Notes under the pieces: generated by a model | The model's database searches: none | The model's input: only the letters and a program-made list of their open reading frames with translations | What the model was told of the DNA's origin: nothing | Source: Nothopassalora personata | Taxonomy: Eukaryota > Ascomycota > Dothideomycetes > Mycosphaerellales > Mycosphaerellaceae | Reading direction: 5' to 3' | DNA length: 64,000 nucleotides | Assembly: GCA_033816765.1 (NCBI GenBank) | Contig: CM066297.1 | Coordinates: 2,288,573 to 2,352,572 of the forward strand | In this document: positions 5,117 through 59,696 of the stretch, one piece after another | Numbering within the stretch: position 1 is the first letter of the stretch | How the letters are laid out: each line of letters opens with the position of its first letter | Position numbers and translations under genes: made by a program

Positions 5117-6231
5117 ATGTATTCGCCTTCTCCATTTCAGTGGTCGATTGAGATTATCTTTTCGCAAGCATCGTGTGGGCTTGAGCCAACCACAAAAAAT
5201 CAATTGCCTGACAAAGAGGTCTTCCTTGCAGCGCACCTAACACCCATGATGACCGATGAGGTATGATGCGCGTTGACACATCGGGCGGCACATATAATAC
5301 TCGGTGCCGAGATGCTTGTACATACATTAGCCACGCTCGCTAACAACTTCAACAATGTAGGACGAGACTGTCTGTCTGATCTGCTGGCAGCCATCGATCG
5401 TCTTACTGCGAACACCATGCGATCATATCTACTGCGCGCAATACCTGATCGTATGACCAAGCACGACTAACACTTGCCCACATGAAAACCGAGGACTTTT
5501 CGAGGTCGAGGGCACTCGTACGATTTATCAACTGGCGCCATTCATTAAACCACATCTTCAGCGTTGGCATGGCCTGAAGTTCTCGAGCATTTCACTCTTG
5601 CGCACAGCGAGGTCGGAGCCTATGCTCTTGGGAGCGACAGCGATCTCGATCGCCTAGACAGCGCCGATGTCGCCATCCATAGCGCGGTATTTCAGTTTAC
5701 AAGTCTCTTCGATGACTGGAGACGCACCCTCACTGACGGATCCGAGCACCTACAGTGCCGCGAGATCGAATGTCCGATAGAGGCGACCCTACTGTACTCC
5801 GGCTTGTTGCTTTCGCGGGTTGCCAGCGACTGGCCTCTATACCTGGTCATGACCACTTGATCCACGGGATTTTTCGATACCAGTGGACCCGAGTCTACCG
5901 GCGAATCAGTCAACTTCTCGTTAACAGACGGATGCACCCAGCCAAAGTGGGCCAGCTGAAGGATACCTTGGTGAGCCTGGGGCCATTCGCTTACGTGGTG
6001 CCACGGGAGCCTTCCCCTCAGCGGAACCCTAGGTCTGCCTTTACTAGCGAGGTCCGTCGCTTTGCGCATGATGTTGAAATGCTCGTACGATGAATTGCAT
6101 CCGCTGCTGCAGACGTGTACATGCGTCAGATATCGGACGGTCAAGTAGTAGAGCCTGAGCTGGAATATGCTCCTGAGGCCGCTGCGCGTATGGTGCTAAT
6201 CGCATCGCATTTGAACCGTAGGCGGGAGTAG
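5117..6231 (+). pseudogene. Decayed gene of unknown family
   Basis: Starting at an ATG (5117, MYSPSPFQW) the frame reads coding-like text interrupted by a single TGA near 5261, then continues in the same frame (AAHIILGAEMLVHTLATLAN) to a stop at 5468. A +1 frame carries GLFEVEGTRTIYQLAPFIKP up to about 5655. The first frame resumes (DSDLDRLDSADVAIHSAVFQF) to 5860. The third frame then continues through RRFAHDVEMLVR, a TGA, and DVYMRQISDGQVVEPELEY, ending at a TAG at 6229-6231. At least four lesions are needed to read one protein, so I call it a pseudogene. Some breaks could be introns that I cannot place. I recognise no family. Confidence 0.5.
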
Positions 6232-38994: not shown

Positions 38995-41900
38995 TCACTG
39001 ATTCTGCGATCCAGTCGCACCCGCTCCAACAACCCCGTTCCTCACCCCCTGACTGAGGTCAACCCGCTCCAGATCATCCGTAATATGCCCCACAACCACA
39101 TCCTCCCTCGGCTGCACACTCGTAGCATGACTCAGCACGCCCGCAGCACCATGCGGCGTGTTCTCATGTGCAGATCCCAACGGGTGCGCGGAGCCCACGC
39201 CGACGACACCATTGTGGACGCCGGAATAAAGATCCACATCCCTGAGGCCGCCGTGAACAGCGCCCGAGACAGGCTGGAAAGCGATGGGCCGGTGAACTGT
39301 ACCAACAGTGGAGTTGCCTTCGCCTAGACCACGCTGCTGTTCGCGCGCGGCAATTTCGGAGTGAGGGAGAGTCTCGGGGCGGTGCTCGTAGCTTACGTCT
39401 GGGGCCGCGGAGCTCTCGACTGCGTTGTGGTCGATGCCTGAGGCTGTGTCGGCGTGGGCTGGTCGGGAGTCTGAGCCTCCGTCGAGAGGAGCGACGCCGG
39501 TGCCCGGCTCTGGGCCAGAGGAGGAGTTCAGGTGGCTTTCGGTCTGGTGGTTGCTCGGGATTGAGGGGTAGGAACGACTGCTGTTGTCCTGGCCATGGGC
39601 CTGTTGCGCGGCGACTGGAAGGACGGAGGCTGGATCGTTGTATACCTGCTGTGCCGTTTGACGAGCAGGAGCGGCTGCATCCTGAGCTTGCTCAACAAGT
39701 GGTCTCTCTGAGCCTGTGATATTTGCCCGAGCAGTATTGGCATCAGGAATCTGTTGCGAGATCTGCTCGGTGACTGGCCTCTGAAATCCCGTGATGTTCG
39801 CCCTCGCAGTATCGGCATCCGGTATCTGCTGCGAAATCTGCTCAGTAATCGGCCTCTCCGACCCCGTAACATTCGCCCTCGCAGCATCAGCATCAGGAAT
39901 CTGCCTCGAGATCGTGTCCTGAGCTGAGCGAGTAGTATTAGCAGCAACGGCACCAGCACCAGCCAAAACACTGGTAACAGTGTTGTTCTCACTGCTGGCC
40001 TGAGCTGGTGGTACTTCCCGCTTCAGCTCGGCCTCGACATCGTTCTTCTCCTGGACGGCGAAAGGATTGGCACTGGCCTCAGGACTAACACCAGCAGCTC
40101 GCTGGCTCTGCTGGACGACAGATGGTGCCTCGCCACGATGGAGCGAGGCGTCGGAAGTGTTGGCAGCGGTTTGTGGGTCGATGGCTTTTTGGGCTGATTC
40201 TGGCAGGATGGTGACGGGGTCAGTGCCGGTTACTTGGTGAGTTTGCTGACGAGCATACTCGGCAGCTCCGGCGACGGCTGTGCCTGCAGCAGCGAGGCCG
40301 CCTGCAATAGCTCCACCAATGCCAGAACCACTAACCGACTGAGTCGATGAGCTGACGCTGCCTGTGGCAGGCTGGTCAAGAGCTGCTCGCTTGTGCTGTT
40401 CCTCGACTTCATCGTACGTGGGCAAGTCAAGGGGAGCGGCCTCGCCTGCCTTCCTGTGACTATCAGCAACCAAGTCTGGCACTTCCCTTGCCTCCGGGCC
40501 ATCTTTTACAGACACCTTGGGAGCCTCCGCGGAAGCAATGCCAGTGGTGACAGTGGGTTGAGTCTGACCAAGAGTAGACGGTCCTGATGGGAGACCAGAG
40601 CTGATGTCACTGGTGGTCGTGTGCGATGGTACCTGCGCCTGCGAGCTTGCTGGGGCATTGAGCCCGCTGTCTGTGCTGGACGGTGTTAGTTTGTTGGTAG
40701 GAGTCTGACCAAAGACTTGCTCTTTTGCGTAGTTGAGACCTTGCAGAGCTTGTTGTTGAGCAGTACGAGCTGCATCTGATGCCTGGTCGACCAGCGGGCG
40801 CTCCGAGCCTGTGACAGTGGCTCTTGCGGTGTTGGCGTCTGGGATCTGGTTCTGCGCCGAATGAGCCGTGTCCGAAGCTTGGTCAACAAGGGATCGCTCT
40901 GAGCCGGTGACGTTAGCTCTGGCGGTGTCCGCACTTGGAATTTGCCCGGAGATGGTGTCTTGAACCGAGCGAGCAGCATCTGAAGCTTGGTCAACAAGGG
41001 ATCGCTCTGAGCCGGTGACGTTAGCTCTGGCGGTGTCCGCACTTGGAATTTGCCCGGAGATGGTGTCTTGAACCGAGCGAGCAGCATCTGAAGCTTGGTC
41101 AACGAGGGATCGCTCTGAGCCGGTGACGTTAGCTCTGGCGGTGTCCGCACTTGGAATTTGCCCGGAGATGGTGTCTTGAACCGAGCGAGCAGCATCTGAA
41201 GCTTGGTCAACAAGTGGTCGCTCAGACCCCGTGACGTTAGCCCTAGCAGTGTCCGCGCTCGGAATCTGCCTCGAAATAGCATCTTGGGCAGAGCGAGCCG
41301 CATCGGAAGCCTGATCAACCAGTGGTCGCTCCGATCCCGTCAAGTTCGCCCTCGCAGTACTAGCATCCGGCAAGTTCCGCGAAATCTGCTCGGTGCTCGG
41401 AAGCGACTGCTTCACGGCATTGAGGTCATCACGATCAGAAGTCTCCGATTCGAAAGCACCAGGAATGGAAAGGTCATCGACATCGTGAGCCTTCTCACTC
41501 TCTGGATGTGGTTGAGCGGCGGTCTTAGCTGTCGCATCGCCTGCGCCGAGAACAAGGCTGCTGAGACCTGATATTAGCGAGCTTGCGCCACGAGCTACGG
41601 ATTCTGCGGCTTGTTGGGCCGTCTCTGTGGCTTGTTGTGTAGTTGGTAGCTGTTCGGTGATTGACTGCGTGGTCGGCAGCTGATCAGCAATGGACTTTGG
41701 TGCTGCGATGTCGGCGACAGAGTCGAGGCTACTCTTGACTGATGATGGAAGCCCTGAGTTGCTGACTTCGGTTGTGCCAGTGTGAGCTGTTCCAGACAGA
41801 CCGGCTGGTGCTGCATCCTTCGCTCCTGGCCGTGCGGCCAATGAGCCAGTCAGGTTTGCGTCTTGTTCTTGCTCCGAAAGAGTTGTCGAACCTCCGTCCG

Positions 41901-42480
41901 AAGAGCCGGTATGACGATTTTCGTCTAATCGTGTATTCTGACCGGTGTGAGCAGGAGAAGACACCGCACCTATGTTGGCCGTTTTGCTGACAGCAGGTGG
42001 CTGTCCGTCGACACCATTCCGGGGCCCAGCCGGCATGTTGTTCTGCACTCCAGGTCTCGCAGCATAAGTCTCATCCAACACCTCATCCTGCTGACTCTTG
42101 TCAAGCTCCGTATCCTGTCCCACACTCCTCTCACTCTCAGCAAGACCCCTACCAACCGAGCTTCCCCTCTGTGCAGTTCCAACGTGAGGGTATTCCGTCC
42201 CTGTCACGCCATGTGTTTCTGTAGCAGACTGTGGTGCAACAGTACCCTGATCAGCAGCACCGCTGCTGGGAAGTCCACCAGTGGCTGACATACTGCTTGG
42301 TGGGATATCCGACATGCCTTGTGGCGGGATATCTTGTGCTCCAGGTCGTGCTGGAAAGGTCCCTGCTATGTTCTGATCTTGTTCGTGTTCGGGGAGGGAT
42401 GTGTCGGGTCGTGCTGTGGGGATGGCAGTCACTCGTCCGTCGTTGGGGTGGATGTAGTCTTCTTTGATTTCTTTTGACAT
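38995..42480 (-). CDS. Large hydrophilic repeat protein (LEA-like composition)
   Basis: An intronless 1161-residue frame from ATG 42480. There is no signal peptide or membrane helix except one Gly/Ala-rich stretch (GIGGAIAGGLAAAGTAVAGA). Three modules are visible. Near the N-terminus, three short units end in ARPGxxD/N (NIAGTFPARPGAQD, DETYAARPGVQN, NLTGSLAARPGAKD). In the middle and later part, nine copies of (T/A)ARANxTGSERPLVDQ occur, five of them in a 36-residue period with SDAARSVQDTISGQIPSAD. At the C-terminus two VDLxxGVxNGVVGxG motifs occur (YSGVHNGVVGVGS, LSQGVRNGVVGAG). The amphipathic Ala/Asp/Arg/Gln-rich text resembles LEA/stress proteins, but I do not recognise the family and assign no function. 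Confidence 0.85.
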   Translation of the reverse strand: MSKEIKEDYIHPNDGRVTAIPTARPDTSLPEHEQDQNIAGTFPARPGAQDIPPQGMSDIPPSSMSATGGLPSSGAADQGTVAPQSATETHGVTGTEYPHVGTAQRGSSVGRGLAESERSVGQDTELDKSQQDEVLDETYAARPGVQNNMPAGPRNGVDGQPPAVSKTANIGAVSSPAHTGQNTRLDENRHTGSSDGGSTTLSEQEQDANLTGSLAARPGAKDAAPAGLSGTAHTGTTEVSNSGLPSSVKSSLDSVADIAAPKSIADQLPTTQSITEQLPTTQQATETAQQAAESVARGASSLISGLSSLVLGAGDATAKTAAQPHPESEKAHDVDDLSIPGAFESETSDRDDLNAVKQSLPSTEQISRNLPDASTARANLTGSERPLVDQASDAARSAQDAISRQIPSADTARANVTGSERPLVDQASDAARSVQDTISGQIPSADTARANVTGSERSLVDQASDAARSVQDTISGQIPSADTARANVTGSERSLVDQASDAARSVQDTISGQIPSADTARANVTGSERSLVDQASDTAHSAQNQIPDANTARATVTGSERPLVDQASDAARTAQQQALQGLNYAKEQVFGQTPTNKLTPSSTDSGLNAPASSQAQVPSHTTTSDISSGLPSGPSTLGQTQPTVTTGIASAEAPKVSVKDGPEAREVPDLVADSHRKAGEAAPLDLPTYDEVEEQHKRAALDQPATGSVSSSTQSVSGSGIGGAIAGGLAAAGTAVAGAAEYARQQTHQVTGTDPVTILPESAQKAIDPQTAANTSDASLHRGEAPSVVQQSQRAAGVSPEASANPFAVQEKNDVEAELKREVPPAQASSENNTVTSVLAGAGAVAANTTRSAQDTISRQIPDADAARANVTGSERPITEQISQQIPDADTARANITGFQRPVTEQISQQIPDANTARANITGSERPLVEQAQDAAAPARQTAQQVYNDPASVLPVAAQQAHGQDNSSRSYPSIPSNHQTESHLNSSSGPEPGTGVAPLDGGSDSRPAHADTASGIDHNAVESSAAPDVSYEHRPETLPHSEIAAREQQRGLGEGNSTVGTVHRPIAFQPVSGAVHGGLRDVDLYSGVHNGVVGVGSAHPLGSAHENTPHGAAGVLSHATSVQPREDVVVGHITDDLERVDLSQGVRNGVVGAGATGSQNQ
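40874..41197. repeat. Three near-identical 108-bp tandem units inside the repeat-protein gene
   Basis: Unit starts at 40874, 40982 and 41090, with a partial unit at 41198, are exactly 108 bp apart. The units differ by very few bases (for example CAACAAGGG versus CAACGAGGG). 108 bp is 36 codons, so gain or loss keeps the frame. Near identity indicates recent duplication or gene conversion. Confidence 0.95.
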
Positions 42481-43067
42481 GGTGAGGGGTGTTGTCGAGT
42501 TAGGGTACTCGTACGGAAGACGAGGATTGTATGTTATGAGAGAGTGAAGGAGATGTGTTCAGGCTGCCGAGGCTGCATACTTAGACTTCGTGCGCTGTTT
42601 GCTTATGATGCTGTTGTTTGTTCTTGCGTCACTATGGTGGACTCTATGCCGTATGTGATCGTGACGTGTGCGGTGTGTGGAGGAAACCAGGTTTTGATTG
42701 GACCTGCGCGTGCGCCATCCATCGTTTGGGCTGGCTACATCATCGTCCGTTAGACACGTGCTGACTGCCAATGTTTCGTGCAAGACGTGGTGCATCTTGT
42801 GATGCTGGATGAAGTGAGGTTCAACGACAAGCAAACGCCGTTGGGAGATCCATGACAATAGCCAAGAGATGTGGTTCCAGATATGGTAGTTCTCGAGGAG
42901 AACATCCATCACAATCCTCCATGTAGAAGCAGGACCGGGAAGCATCGCACTGTACTCTACTCACGCGAAGGAAGAACAAAATGGCTCGATCGGACGCATG
43001 TGATACAAATCTGCTACAAACCTGCAAACCGCTCTCTCAACTCAACCTACTTCCGCTACCTATCCTT
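42481..43067. other. Upstream region of the repeat-protein gene
   Basis: 587 bp between the start of the repeat protein and the end of the secreted-protein gene, both on the minus strand. No gene is supported. Confidence 0.5.
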
Positions 43068-49380: not shown

Positions 49381-49479
49381 AAGAAGAAGAAGAAGAAGAA
49401 GAAGAAGAAGAAGAAGAAGAAGAAGAAGAAGAAGAAGAAGAAGAAGAAGAAGAAGAAGAAGAAGAAGAAGAAGAAGAAG
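49381..49479. repeat. (AAG)33 microsatellite
   Basis: 99 bp of perfect AAG repeats. It is not inside a supported gene; frames through it give poly-Lys, poly-Arg or poly-Glu artefacts. Confidence 0.97.
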
Positions 49480-51240: not shown

Positions 51241-52950
51241 ATGCGCTCGCAAGAGTTACCTAGCATCGTCCTGGACGGCGTCGACATGTCCTTGACACGA
51301 CCAAATACACCGCCACGCTTAACGCTGTCGCCAAGTTCATCAAATGAGAGCATCGATAAGATGATGCCATCGACGCCGGAGTCAAAAATGTCGAACCCAT
51401 TCAGCGAAAAGGCGATGTCAATCGCGTCATCTCCATCAACTTTCAACGAGGCCGAGGCAGTTCTACTTCCTGGATTCCATTTCTCTACTACCGATTCAAG
51501 TGTCGACGCCGCCGAATTCCACCGTATTGCTGCTCAACTCCTGTCTGGGGAACAGTCGAAGAGTGATTCTGCCATCCCGGATGAAGTGACTGAAGCTGCG
51601 GGGCCGCGACAGCTGCATTGCGATCTTGGAAAGGACCCATCTGGGCGGTATTGCTGCTCATGTGGCAAGTCTTACAGCACGCCGTCGCGTTTGCACGAGC
51701 ACTCCATAGCATGCGCTGGCACTACAGATCATCCCTGCCCAACCTGCGACAAGATCTTCCCAACACGAGTGCGACTGAATCGGCATATCTCGTCGAGGCA
51801 TAACCACAACAAAGAGGCTTGTCCGGAGTGCGGGGAGATGTTCCGTGTAGACAAACTCCCATTGCATCTTGCCTCCGGGCTGGGTGGATGCGATGGCATG
51901 GTTCAGGCACCTTTAGGACGAAATCCCGGACTAGAGCAGGCTTACCAGCCTTCTGCTCCATGGACTTCACAACACTACTGGAATTACGATGGCGACCTTC
52001 CATGGAGACGAAGCTTGGAGATCAAACGCGACTCTGGTTATGATGCACCAGAAGTAGCCGAACAGACCATGAGCTTCGTTACGCGCTTGCTTCAGCGACC
52101 CACATCGCAAGAAGTATTAGAGCCATGCGATCTCTGCGGAGAGATGTGCGAAACAAAGGACGCTCTCATCCAGCACATCGGAGAGCACTCTTTGGACTTC
52201 AACGAGAAGCGTCATCGATGCGACGAGTGCATGATCTACTTTGCAATCGAGAAGGACCTTGAACGACATCTGCAGTCCGTGAACCTTCACCAACATTGTG
52301 GCTTCACCTTCCGCCACTGTGCCGGAACTTGTACCGGGCACCACCCTCCGACATATTACAAGTCCAGCCTCTGCAATGATCACAACCTGATGCAGAAACA
52401 TCTTTGGTCTTGGGAACTCTGTCAACTCAGGACTCATCGTGCTACCGTGGCTCGTCTGCTGGCTCAACATGTAAGCCAGACCGCCTTGCCACACATGTCA
52501 GTGCAGGACTGCAAGCGCACATACTACTCTGTACTACCGCACATGAGCATGGCTAGCCGTGACACTTTACGCTCGGAATCTGCCTGGAGCAAAGACCGGC
52601 GCCCATCAGAGACATCCGAGCTTGATGCTTACTTCAGCCGCATCGTGTCACAAACATATCCGGAAGAAGACCTTAGCAGACTCAAGAAGCTCCAGGAGGC
52701 TGAAGCGACACTCGGTGCCCGGCCAGACTCAGCGATCTTGCCTGGTGTCCGCGATGCCAAGCACACCCCTAAAGGAAAGAGCATTGTTGACCTTACCAAG
52801 CGCAAGACTGTCCTTGATGGTGTCAAACATGGCCATAAACGAGGCAGCTCCAACCCTTTGAACTTTCTGAGGCGCACAGCTTGTGTTAATGATACCAGAC
52901 CGCAGTCATTACCTGCGCGCAGTACGCCGCTAGCGAAGCTATCTACCTGA
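51241..52950 (+). CDS. C2H2 zinc-finger protein
   Basis: An intronless 569-residue frame from ATG 51241. A Ser/Pro-rich N-terminus (PRLTLSPSSSNESIDKMM) precedes two clusters of C2H2-like fingers. The first, after residue ~135, reads CCSCGKSYSTPSRLHEHSIA, CPTCDKIFPTRVRLNRHISS and CPECGEMFRVDKLPLHLA (last finger atypical). The second, near residue 300, reads CDLCGEMCETKDALIQHIGE and CDECMIYFAIEKDLERHLQS. A third His/Cys-rich part follows (HCGFTFRHCAGTCTGHHPP). The C-terminus is basic (HKRGSSNPLNFLRRT). It is probably a nuclear DNA-binding regulator; targets are unknown. Confidence 0.85.
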   Translation: MRSQELPSIVLDGVDMSLTRPNTPPRLTLSPSSSNESIDKMMPSTPESKMSNPFSEKAMSIASSPSTFNEAEAVLLPGFHFSTTDSSVDAAEFHRIAAQLLSGEQSKSDSAIPDEVTEAAGPRQLHCDLGKDPSGRYCCSCGKSYSTPSRLHEHSIACAGTTDHPCPTCDKIFPTRVRLNRHISSRHNHNKEACPECGEMFRVDKLPLHLASGLGGCDGMVQAPLGRNPGLEQAYQPSAPWTSQHYWNYDGDLPWRRSLEIKRDSGYDAPEVAEQTMSFVTRLLQRPTSQEVLEPCDLCGEMCETKDALIQHIGEHSLDFNEKRHRCDECMIYFAIEKDLERHLQSVNLHQHCGFTFRHCAGTCTGHHPPTYYKSSLCNDHNLMQKHLWSWELCQLRTHRATVARLLAQHVSQTALPHMSVQDCKRTYYSVLPHMSMASRDTLRSESAWSKDRRPSETSELDAYFSRIVSQTYPEEDLSRLKKLQEAEATLGARPDSAILPGVRDAKHTPKGKSIVDLTKRKTVLDGVKHGHKRGSSNPLNFLRRTACVNDTRPQSLPARSTPLAKLST

Positions 52951-55817: not shown

Positions 55818-56954
55818 TTACGCCTCGACCCAGCCATCAGCCGCGAGGTCTCGCTTTCCGCAAGCCATGCCTGGGACAGAGCAACGGTAGAGGACGCCGC
55901 CCCTACCAGCGTCGCGTGCCTCGACCTCCTCGTCATCCTCGACCTCTTCGAAGCCATCAGCCTCGAGGTCTCGCTTTCCGCAAGCCATGCCTGGGACAGA
56001 GCAACGGTAAAGGACGCCGCCCCTACCAGCGTCACGCTCCGCGACGAAACCGTCAGCCTCAAGGTCTCGCTTTCCACAGGCCATGCCGGGAACAGAGCAG
56101 CGGTAGAGGACAGCTTTGGCTTTCCTGGCCTCAGCGTCGCGAACCTCGACGAAGCCGTCGGCGGCAAGGTCTCGCTTTCCACAGGCCATACCTGGAACGG
56201 AGCAGCGGTAGAGAACACCCTTGGCCTTTCCTGCCTCAGGGTCGCGAACCTCGACCTGCTCGAAACCGTCGGCGGCAAGGTCTCGCTTTCCACAAGCCAT
56301 ACCGGGAACAGAGCAGCGGTAGAGGACTGCCTTGGCCTTCTTCTTCTTCTTGGCCTCGGGGTCTCTGGTGTCGATGTCCTCGACGTCCTCAATCTCGTCC
56401 GGGTGGTACGCTTCAAAGCCATCGGCCTCGAGGTCCCGCTTGCCACATGCCATGCCCGGAACAGAGCAACGGTAGAGCACAGCCTTGGCCTTCTTCTTCG
56501 CAGCCTCAGCGTCCCGCTTGCCGCATGCCATGCCGGGCACACTGCATCGGTAGAGCTTAGCCTTAGCCTTCTTGGCCTCAGCCTCGGCTTCAGCCTCACG
56601 TTTGCCACATGCCATGCCTGGAACAGAGCAGCGGTAGAGGACAGCCTTGGCCTTCTTCTTCTTGGGGTCTCTGGCCTCGACGGCAGTGTCCACGTCCTCA
56701 ATGACCTCACCGGCGAGGTCCCAGCCATCGGCCTCGAGGTCTCGCTTTCCGCAAGCCATGCCGGGAACAGAGCAGCGGTAGAGGACAGCCTTGGCCTTCT
56801 TGGCCTCAGCCTCAGCCTCGCGTTTGCCGCAGGCCATACCTGGGACAGAGCATCGGTAGAGGACGCCCTTGGCTTTGCCAGCTTCTGGTTCTGGGCGAGC
56901 GGCGGCCAGGGCGACCGTGCCGGCCAGGAGGAGGGTGGAAATGACGATCTTCAT
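55818..56954 (-). CDS. Alpha-factor-like pheromone precursor, ten identical core peptides
   Basis: An intronless 378-residue frame from ATG 56954. A signal peptide (MKIVISTLLLAGTVALAAA) is followed by ten exact copies of LYRCSVPGMACGKR, cores starting (Tyr) near residues 33, 59, 107, 135, 161, 212, 249, 284, 316 and 356. Each copy ends in KR, the Kex2 site. Spacers open with EAEA/DAEA (Ste13-type dipeptides) or with DL(E/A)ADG(F/W). The core fits the C-x-x-x-G-x-x-C pattern of filamentous-ascomycete alpha pheromones, which are secreted to the opposite mating type and sensed by Ste2-type receptors. It differs from the better-known peptides in having Tyr-Arg in place of Trp before the first Cys and a Gly between the last Cys and KR. 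Lys-rich text precedes most cores. The alternative is a Kex2-processed RiPP precursor, but no tailoring enzyme is nearby. Confidence 0.8.
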   Translation of the reverse strand: MKIVISTLLLAGTVALAAARPEPEAGKAKGVLYRCSVPGMACGKREAEAEAKKAKAVLYRCSVPGMACGKRDLEADGWDLAGEVIEDVDTAVEARDPKKKKAKAVLYRCSVPGMACGKREAEAEAEAKKAKAKLYRCSVPGMACGKRDAEAAKKKAKAVLYRCSVPGMACGKRDLEADGFEAYHPDEIEDVEDIDTRDPEAKKKKKAKAVLYRCSVPGMACGKRDLAADGFEQVEVRDPEAGKAKGVLYRCSVPGMACGKRDLAADGFVEVRDAEARKAKAVLYRCSVPGMACGKRDLEADGFVAERDAGRGGVLYRCSVPGMACGKRDLEADGFEEVEDDEEVEARDAGRGGVLYRCSVPGMACGKRDLAADGWVEA

Positions 56955-58362
56955 GTTGTTTTTGGTTGTCTCTCAGATGTGAGAGAGATAAGTTGGTAGT
57001 TGTGTAGAGAGTGACAGAAATGTCGTCGTAGTCTTATGGCTTAGACCAGACGTGTTGGTGTATGAATGAGTATAAAAGAATGACTCGTGGGTGAGGAAGA
57101 AGAGTATACGAAAACGGCCATCAGCATCGCGATATATAGGCCTCGTTACCACTTCAATAGTCTTTAGTGATGCCCGATGAGTGTCTCAATAGTCTTCTGA
57201 ATAAAGGGAAATCGACATGGACGAGTGGCAATAAGCCTCGTGGCCGAGCATCTGGAGGTCAATAGGCTGCTCCGAGAGCTCAATAAGGATAGTCTTTTGT
57301 AGCGCCACGGGAAGTCGACAATGAAACAGTAAGAGAGTCTGTGTGCAGTGCTGACCATACAGGTGGGTCATTGGTAGGATCGTGAGCGTGGAGACGAAGA
57401 AGAGCTACGAAAGCAGTCCAGTGTTGACACGGGCTATGAGTTCGAGGCTTTGTAATCGTTCAGCAATCACATGTCAGACCCACGACATGTCAGGTCACAG
57501 CGAACGAAGCATATCTGGACAGCAATATGTGCTCTTCCGGTGCTCTCTGTCTCGCTCCTGGTTGATCCAGGTGAATCGGAAACAGTCGTGGTACATTTGA
57601 ATATGCGGAAGTAGCACAAGCATCTCGAGTCAACCCATGTGGTGGCGCTGGATCTCGACTTCGAGCGGTAGATGAGCAGTCCCAATTTGGTGCTCAATAG
57701 ACATGAAGTTATTGAGCACCACTTCGGGCTAGCGTCAGAGACCTTTGACAGACATTTCCCACGCTACAGCTGCCGCTTTCACGTGGCAGCCACCAAAGCT
57801 CGATATGCTCCAGTCGTAGATGAAGCCGGTGCCACTTGTCTTCAATTGTTGATATCCGTTGTCTGAAGGTGACGCGGTGCGATTGTCTCCCGGATCGGCG
57901 TGGTCGTGCTTTCTTCCCTCGGCGACAGAGCCAATATAGTCTCTTCTCACAGGCTGAGCATCCGCTGGGGAGGTGAGACGTCCTTGCCGGCAATAGCGTT
58001 GCAGTGATGACGCGAGAAAACGCGTACAGTATTTTGGTACGCGGTGATAAGCCACCCATGGAGATGGCCGCGGCACGATGCTGCCACTGAGTACTGTCTT
58101 GTGTAATCATCATACAAAGCGCTCTGGCGACTGATTCACAAGACGGGCCGTGAACAGGAGACAGCATGGAGAAAATGTGATGGCGATATGTTCGTGGTAA
58201 ACCAACCATGAAGGGTGCAGTCGGACGCGGCAAGCGATGTCGGTAGAGCGATAAGTGGCTCAGCGCCGGCTAGAACTAGCGTCATCCCTGCAAACCTTCG
58301 CGCATTCCTGCAGAGCTCTACATGAACATTGAGACAACATTATATCTCTTCACCACGCCAAC
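56955..58362. other. Non-coding stretch between the pheromone-like gene and IDH1
   Basis: About 1.4 kb without a credible gene. The first part is the divergent upstream region of the pheromone-like gene. The phrase CAATAGTCTT recurs near 57157 and 57188. Confidence 0.5.
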
Positions 58363-59696
58363 ATGTTCTCAAGGCGGGCCGTCCAGGTGTGTGAAGCTTG
58401 TATCATCTCGCGGCTGACACGCTCTAACCCTGACGGCGACACAGGCCCTTCGCAGCAATGCCTTCTATGCCGCACAGCCGTCGATCGCGGCGCGCAGTAC
58501 GTAGCCACCCAGAACACCTCCGCCGACAACCGCCAGGAACAACAGATACTGACGACAATGCACAGCATACGCGACGACCGTAAACTCGGACATCTTCAAG
58601 CCCACCAAGTTCGGCGGCAAGTACACAGTCACCTTGATCCCAGGTACGCCAACACAAAAGCAAGATCGGCATGTGATGAGAGGAGCAACAAGCTAAGAAG
58701 GCACAATCAGGTGACGGTATTGGTGCCGAAGTCTCAGAGTCGGTCAAGACCATCTTCAAGGCAGACAATGTGCCCGTGGAGTGGGAGCAGGTCGATGTCT
58801 CTGGAATGGAGGAAGGTGACAAGCACTCCGAGGAGCTCTTCCGCGAATCGCTGGCCTCCCTCAAGCGCAACAAGCTCGGTCTGAAGGGTATCTTGCATAC
58901 ACCAGTGACACGATCCGGCCACCAGTCCTTCAACGTTGCTCTGCGTCAGGAACTCGACATCTACGCCTCGATTGTGCTCATCAAGAACATCCCTGGCTAC
59001 GAAACCCGTCACAAGAACGTCGACCTCTGCATCATCCGTGAGAACACCGAGGGTGAGTACTCCGGCCTCGAACACCAATCCGTCAGCGGCGTCGTCGAGT
59101 CCCTCAAGATCATCACGCGCGCCAAGTCCGAGCGCATCGCCAAGTTCGCTTTCTCCTTCGCCCTTGCCAACAACCGCCGCAAGGTCACCTGCATCCACAA
59201 GGCAAATATCATGAAGCTGGCCGATGGTCTGTTCCGCAACACCGTCCGCAAGGTCGGTGAGGAGTACCCAACCATCGAGACCAACGACATGATCGTCGAC
59301 AATGCATCCATGCAGTGTGTCTCCCGCCCACAGCAATTCGACGTGATGGTCATGCCCAACCTCTACGGAGGCATCCTCTCCAACATCGGTGCCGGTCTGG
59401 TCGGTGGCCCAGGAATTGTCCCAGGTTGTAACATGGGTCGCGAAGTGGCCGTTTTCGAGCCAGGATGCCGTCACGTCGGTCTTGATATCAAGGGCAAGGA
59501 CCAGGCTAATCCAACTGCAATGATCCTCTCTGGCAGCATGATGTTGAGACACCTTGGACTGGACGACCATGCGAACAGGATCAGCAAGGCTGTTTATGAT
59601 GTGATTGCCGAGGGCAAGACGAGGACCAGGGATATGGGTGGCAACTCCACTACACATGAGTTTACGAGGGCTGTGCTGGATCACATGGAGGCTTGA
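58363..59696 (+). CDS. IDH1: NAD-dependent isocitrate dehydrogenase, subunit 1, mitochondrial
   Basis: Regulatory subunit of the TCA-cycle enzyme that oxidises isocitrate to 2-oxoglutarate. Exons are 58363-58386, 58445-58496, 58566-58643 and 58711-59696 (379 residues). Introns are 58, 69 and 67 bp, all GT-AG. The spliced N-terminus (MFSRRAVQALRSNAFYAAQ) is a mitochondrial presequence, followed by TVTLIPGDGIGAEVSESV. Family marks are LRQELDIYASIVLIKNIPGY, DLCIIRENTEGEYSGLEHQS, IHKANIMKLADGLFRN, DNASMQCVSRPQQFDVMVMP and GGNSTTHEFTRAVL. Subunit 1 rather than 2 is assigned from the IPGYETRHKNVD text and overall similarity. The gene lies upstream of CYT1 on the same strand, 1.6 kb apart. Confidence 0.95.

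Follow-up and report, generated by a model that had tools for sequence, protein, structure and literature searches.

Is a fungal gene that encodes one short two-cysteine peptide ten times over, with every copy ending in KR, the precursor of a mating pheromone, or of some other secreted peptide? The gene was found in a window of 64,000 nucleotides, meaning the whole stretch of DNA that was analysed, where it forms an intact minus-strand open reading frame from ATG to stop (Table 1). The encoded protein contains exactly ten copies of LYRCSVPGMACGKR, starting at residues 32, 58, 106, 134, 160, 211, 248, 283, 315 and 355, each of which holds a C-x-x-x-G-x-x-C core and is closed by KR, a Kex2 site, and all 20 cysteines of the precursor fall inside these copies. 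The N-terminus, MKIVISTLLLAGTVALAAARPEPEA, is clear by eye as a signal-peptide-like sequence. Three of the nine spacers between cores are of the EAEA/DAEA type, with EA or DA runs directly after KR, and the other six start with DL[EA]ADG, such that DL comes after KR, and RDP or RDA (X-Pro or X-Ala after a later single Arg) follows in all six; the last core is succeeded by the tail DLAADGWVEA. The exact count in the 378-residue frame bears out the ten identical cores claimed in a preliminary description of this DNA, which had also read a signal peptide and the two kinds of spacer, EAEA/DAEA and DL-ADG, from the translation. A search of the whole genome (54.5 Mb in 40 contigs) with the precursor protein returned a single match, the precursor gene itself. 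When a second alpha precursor was sought with homologue P0001, solely the window gene was recovered, in three pieces, and a search with homologue P0007, a query that misses the window gene too, gave nothing convincing (E 0.389). A divergent second alpha precursor may lie elsewhere in the genome.

Table 1. Features of the precursor locus, with positions counted from the first letter of the window
Feature	Position	Strand	Remarks
Alpha-pheromone precursor gene (ppg1 type), very probable	55818..56954	-	Single open frame, 378 aa; homologues found
Signal peptide, approximately the first 20 residues, MKIVISTLLLAGTVALAAAR	56895..56954	-	Read by eye from the translation; end approximate
Core copy 1, LYRCSVPGMACGKR	56820..56861	-	
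Core copy 2	56742..56783	-	
Core copy 3	56598..56639	-	
Core copy 4	56514..56555	-	Sole copy preceded by Lys instead of Val
Core copy 5	56436..56477	-	
Core copy 6	56283..56324	-	
Core copy 7	56172..56213	-	
Core copy 8	56067..56108	-	
Core copy 9	55971..56012	-	
Core copy 10	55851..55892	-	
CTATTGA, candidate MAT1-1-1 site upstream of the precursor	57154..57160	-	
CTATTGAG, full candidate MAT1-1-1 site	57185..57192	-	Motif from the available part of PMC10512297
CTATTGA, candidate MAT1-1-1 site	57259..57265	-	
CTATTGAG, full candidate MAT1-1-1 site	57693..57700	-	
IDH1 (NAD-isocitrate dehydrogenase), adjacent gene in head-to-head orientation to the precursor	58363..59696	+	Pfam Iso_dh in 58680-59693; exons partly mapped

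The identity of the ten peptides is not matched by their DNA, as the ten cores have ten different nucleotide sequences. The 45 pairwise comparisons gave 271 synonymous differences at 477 synonymous sites (pS 0.57), whereas none of the 1,413 nonsynonymous sites differed. At least 18 codon changes are needed to relate the cores, all of them synonymous; of the 126 single-base changes possible in the consensus core, 32 leave the peptide unaltered, so that 18 out of 18 would be expected by chance with a probability of about 2e-11. This figure assumes independent single-base changes, an assumption breached by one Ser codon (AGT vs TCT). The invariant stretch extends from Leu to KR, the column before it being Val in nine copies, and the column before that Ala in six. 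Hence neither chance nor fresh tandem duplication explains the uniformity of the cores. Rather, selection acts on the core peptide, and keeps it fixed.

This pattern bears directly on a further idea, namely that the lineage is asexual and its pheromone gene a relic that has decayed or is not expressed. We give this hardly any credence. A sexual stage is not known for many related fungi, and fragments of mating-type genes are indeed scattered elsewhere in this genome. However, ten cores that have gathered synonymous changes without a single amino-acid change are evidence of selection, and the precursor, MAT1-1-1 and the Ste2 pieces are free of internal stops, although one piece of Ste3 has two.

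The family to which such a constrained peptide belongs was approached through its homologues. A single-sequence search with the precursor gave nine matches, none carrying a pheromone name, among which a Saxophila protein has four GFCSVPGMFC units. A profile was then built from the window protein and eight of the nine; the weak match P0005 has CSVPG units but, by eye, not the Kex2 layout, and was dropped before alignment. With this profile, 26 proteins were found at E up to 0.001, 20 of them new and six already among the eight homologues in the profile. The list is limited by the choice of candidates and lacks two of the profile's own input rows, P0001 and P0003. Five of the 26 (P0048, P0053, P0055, P0056 and P0061) have pheromone or ccg-4 names from their source. 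The ring CSVPGMAC is unchanged in two of the homologues, P0008 and P0046, where it follows GF. The latter, which is listed under Quercus suber, resembles an alpha-pheromone precursor in appearance, has a GFCSVPGMAC unit, and probably comes from a fungus in the oak sample. As an exact string, the core peptide was not found in the open-licence literature.

Domain databases place the protein less readily. A Pfam search of the precursor matched no pheromone family, the best match being Sina_ZnF below its cut-off, which weighs against the reading as a pheromone. Neither MF_alpha nor MF_alpha_N was listed for the precursor at E up to 10, in a search in which HMMER filtering removes most of what lies above about 0.1, and therefore the protein is not placed in the yeast MF-alpha Pfam family; homologue P0053, named ccg-4, likewise matches no Pfam pheromone family. 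An Rfam scan of the whole window gave nothing at gathering scores. Two-cysteine alpha pheromones are recorded in 13 non-Pleosporalean Dothideomycetes in the available part of PMC6339444.

Three properties of the precursor had been singled out as unusual in the preliminary description, and they fare differently against these comparisons. Ten copies had been thought a high number, but fall within the published ranges of 1 to 16 (excerpt of PMC6339444) and, for Leotiomycetes, 2 to 18 (excerpt of PMC10569646). The Gly before KR is no oddity either: Gly directly follows the second Cys in nine of the 28 tabulated homologues (one example unit each), and the same portion of PMC10569646 gives RCGHPGQPCG and RCGYPGQPCG, with Arg before the first Cys and Gly after the second. 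The replacement of the usual aromatic residue (Trp) by Tyr-Arg stands in part. The residue before the first Cys is aromatic in 21 of the 28 homologues and Arg in two, a count that retains P0046, P0058, P0063 and P0064, for which the regular expression took minor or single units, and the Arg of the window precursor thereby counts against a pheromone; but Arg has its precedent in the Leotiomycete peptides just named. A further point on the opposing side is that the Gly-Gln turn is crucial in the Fusarium pheromone, according to the accessible text of PMC7289986, whereas the window core has Gly-Met. Gly-Met for Gly-Gln is also found in the matches P0002, P0007, P0008 and P0062. As that source further describes oxidised Fusarium oxysporum alpha pheromone as inactive, at least in the part available, a disulfide is not to be assumed to be the active form here.

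The genes around the precursor provide a second line of evidence. The precursor and IDH1 are 1,408 bp apart from ATG to ATG, with the IDH1 ATG picked by eye, and the window IDH1 and the IDH half of P0059 share 89% identity over 326 aa. Among the Pseudogymnoascus precursors P0057, P0059, P0060 and P0061, a precursor stands beside IDH1 in P0059 and P0060, as in the window. Unlike the head-to-head pair of the window, the Pseudogymnoascus precursor is followed by IDH1 on the same strand, and the two are fused in the gene models; the P0059 and P0060 models are probably two adjacent genes merged by annotation. That both cases come from one genus and have a different orientation weighs against the comparison, and the precursor proteins of the window and of Pseudogymnoascus, a Leotiomycete, show faint likeness only. 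In the open-licence literature, pheromone precursors and isocitrate dehydrogenase are both mentioned in papers on Aspergillus and Rhodotorula genomes. Adjacency of precursor and IDH1 is nevertheless a possible gene-order anchor across fungal classes, and an IDH1 neighbour could be a marker for locating divergent alpha-pheromone genes in other classes.

Beyond IDH1, the zinc-finger gene at 51241-52950 has a Dothistroma septosporum protein, 75% identical, as the top-scoring of its 35 matches; another protein reaches 78% identity across 90% of the length, and further named matches are from Zasmidium, Lecanosticta, Cercospora, Septoria, Pseudocercospora and Zymoseptoria. The fungus is thus likely a Mycosphaerellaceae-like Dothideomycete. 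In Pseudocercospora fijiensis, a contig of 4,695,110 bases is given for both the zinc-finger homologue P0033 and the precursor homologue P0001, suggesting that they share one scaffold. Repeats of other kinds also occur in the window. There are tandem repeats at 40874-41385 (108 bp, 4.2 copies) and 39716-39904 (75 bp, 2.5 copies), both inside a minus-strand open frame of 1,187 codons (38995-42558), possibly encoding a repeat protein, and 33 perfect AAG repeats span 49381-49479.

Neighbouring genes also inform on whether the protein gives rise to a cyclic RiPP like the ustiloxins or epichloecyclins, in which the Tyr of each core would be cross-linked by UstYa-type oxidases. Such a product would be in keeping with the Kex2 repeats, the Tyr in every core, the signal peptide seen by eye and the 15 UstYa-family matches in the genome. 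Yet the window contains none of the 15, and the closest one on its contig is about 2.17 Mb off. A Pfam search of 19 window open reading frames besides the precursor (of 36 with at least 200 codons) assigned 12 to housekeeping or unrelated families and seven to none, with no UstYa, tyrosinase or recognised RiPP tailoring enzyme among them. Of 216 putative fungal pheromones that were surveyed, 98.6% had no UstYa-family (DUF3328) neighbour, as given in the available portion of PMC7329392. We therefore consider a cyclic RiPP highly improbable, and the alpha-pheromone reading is followed below.

An alpha pheromone would call for a receptor, processing enzymes and a mating-type locus, and loci for each were found in the same genome. 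STE2 is represented by one locus, made up of two adjacent matches with 237.3 bits together and no internal stop in the pieces, which would encode the cognate receptor of the window peptide. One STE3 locus lies on contig 6, and the two internal stops that one of its pieces shows in a six-frame read are perhaps an intron. There is one locus with the Kex2 P_proprotein domain, and two with DPPIV_N, which could include Ste13, although this domain also matched five of 14 control genomes and is thus non-specific. MAT1-1-1 is open on contig 12, encoding 391 aa with three introns called by eye and no internal stop. Among the eight HMG-box matches of the genome, no intact MAT1-2-1 was seen by eye, there being a fragment on contig 10 only, and hence the mating type of the isolate is probably MAT1-1, the type expected to produce alpha pheromone.

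Apart from the intact gene, fragments of MAT1-1-1 are present on contig 9 (L018:4588-5258) and contig 10 (L031:1501-1801), with DNA 89-96% identical. The contig 9 pieces are in scrambled order, and one runs across the first exon junction with the intron missing (132 bp, ungapped), while on contig 10 a C-terminal MAT1-1-1 piece adjoins a MAT1-2-1-like HMG piece. MAT exon fragments have reportedly been described in Cercospora beticola, and the scattered MAT1-1-1 fragments here look similar.

The region between the precursor and IDH1 may link the gene to the mating-type locus. In the excerpt of PMC10512297, CTATTGAG is the in-vitro binding motif of Penicillium chrysogenum MAT1-1-1, the targets of which include ppg1, pre1, kex1 and kex2. 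CTATTGA occurs eight times in the window, four of them in the 1,408-bp interval before the precursor and all four on the precursor strand, and two of the four copies of CTATTGAG in the window are in the same interval. The window totals are ordinary, as 26 of 100 shuffles reach that of CTATTGA and 13 of 100 that of CTATTGAG; it is the clustering that is unusual. Shuffling the interval yielded four CTATTGA in none of 1,000 trials and two CTATTGAG in one of 1,000, counts that are optimistic in that the motif was chosen after repeats of CAATAG had been noticed; the Ste3 and Ste2 regions, examined later, made a cleaner test. In the 1,430 bp upstream of Ste3 there are two CTATTGA (reached in 16 of 1,000 shuffles) and one CTATTGAG (36 of 1,000), and neither motif is present in the stretches around ste2 (L019), MAT1-1-1 (L017) or kex2 (L021). 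CTATTGA is missing from all 9.9 kb of stretch L021, the part before kex2 included; this differs from Penicillium and is a point against the pheromone reading. A single PRE-like TGAAACA at 57322-57328 was set aside as being at chance level (188 of 1,000 shuffles); one is also found in the Ste2 upstream region.

Around the start of Ste3, four CTATTGA fall within 260 bp (L020, about 5484-5742) near a short tandem repeat, two of them upstream and two in the first exon by eye, and on contig 9 (L023) three CTATTGA are spaced at 10 bp. Clusters of CTATTGA alone therefore do not prove control, given the contig 9 cluster and the sites within Ste3 coding sequence. MAT1-1-1 likely activates the precursor gene through the candidate CTATTGAG sites.

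These loci and motifs are also what tells against a pheromone-related repeat peptide, processed by Kex2, that mainly serves other signalling, such as germ-tube self-signalling or density sensing, rather than mating. There is reason to entertain this: repeat proteins that Kex2 processes and that have no known part in mating are common (excerpts of PMC6339444 and PMC7329392), and the Fusarium alpha pheromone doubles as a quorum signal in the text available from PMC7289986. However, the open MAT1-1-1 together with Ste2 and Ste3 loci in the same genome, the CTATTGAG sites common to the upstream regions of the precursor and Ste3, and the linkage to IDH1 that is common to the Pseudogymnoascus pheromone genes make a mainly non-mating role improbable. 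The two roles are not exclusive, and may coexist.

Hence the gene is very probably a ppg1-type (Ppg1/ccg-4) alpha-pheromone precursor of a filamentous ascomycete, a known kind of gene, and its peptide is likely a lineage-specific variant of the known alpha-pheromone family. The preliminary description had favoured just such a lineage-specific alpha-type mating pheromone, and four lines of evidence now speak for it: firstly, homology; secondly, the IDH1 neighbourhood; thirdly, the receptor and MAT1-1-1 loci; and fourthly, the promoter motifs. We infer from these the secretion of the peptide, its processing and mature ends, its regulation, its receptor binding and its function in mating. Each precursor would yield the same secreted two-cysteine peptide ten times, and this peptide would act on the Ste2 of the opposite mating type. 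The signal peptide would route it into the secretory pathway, where Kex2 would cleave after each KR, the Kex1 carboxypeptidase would strip KR to leave an end in CSVPGMACG, and the trimming of EA, DA and DP dipeptides would fall to a dipeptidyl peptidase of the Ste13 type. The Arg-Asp-Ala/Pro present in all six DL spacers could be a second, monobasic cut. In homologue P0006, three of the four units are followed by KR-DLE-x-R-[DG]AE, a layout similar to the DL spacers of the window, and on this account their Arg may be a processing site. As the invariant stretch starts at Leu, the mature product is likely (V)LYRCSVPGMAC(G), with an uncertain N-terminus, and the candidate mature forms would be LYRCSVPGMAC, LYRCSVPGMACG and VLYRCSVPGMACG.

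A broader joint claim can be put forward only tentatively, and is doubtful as a whole. It holds that this lineage has rewired the alpha channel, from an aromatic residue to Tyr-Arg and from Gly-Gln to Gly-Met, with a co-diverged Ste2 making a private mating signal; that six of the nine internal spacers carry an extra monobasic Arg-Asp-Ala/Pro cut; and that the promoters of the pheromone gene and of Ste3 have in common a MAT1-1-1 operator, CTATTGAG, whose conservation reaches from Eurotiomycetes to Dothideomycetes. The finding is one of ordinary biology. It offers an exact candidate pair of peptide and receptor for a fungus that is likely a relative of Dothistroma, a pair that could be used to test or trigger mating. 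MAT1-1-1 control in Dothideomycetes becomes directly testable through the CTATTGA clusters, which precede the pheromone gene and Ste3 but not Ste2.

Several known systems resemble the window precursor. Saccharomyces cerevisiae MF-alpha1 has four copies, and its peptide is without cysteines. What is shared is the plan of a prepro-protein with repeats that matures through Kex2 and Ste13, as set out in the available part of PMC6339444. The Leotiomycete factors RCGHPGQPCG and RCGYPGQPCG (PMC10569646, in part), which are the cores of P0009 and P0048, likewise have Arg-Cys, a Pro-Gly turn and Gly after the second Cys. These factors are printed from Arg on, whereas in the window Leu-Tyr before the Arg is also invariant, and Met takes the place of Gln. 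Pseudocercospora fijiensis MYCFIDRAFT_81022 (P0001), an 'uncharacterized protein' at source for which the pheromone label is that of this analysis, has six identical cores, IGAWTFCGVPGAAC. The window precursor differs from P0001 in having ten cores, with YR before Cys where P0001 has an aromatic residue, and Met after Gly where P0001 has Ala; the two share a hydrophobic N-terminus, repeats bounded by Kex2 sites, X-Ala dipeptides, a C-x-x-P-G-x-x-C core and membership of the Dothideomycetes.
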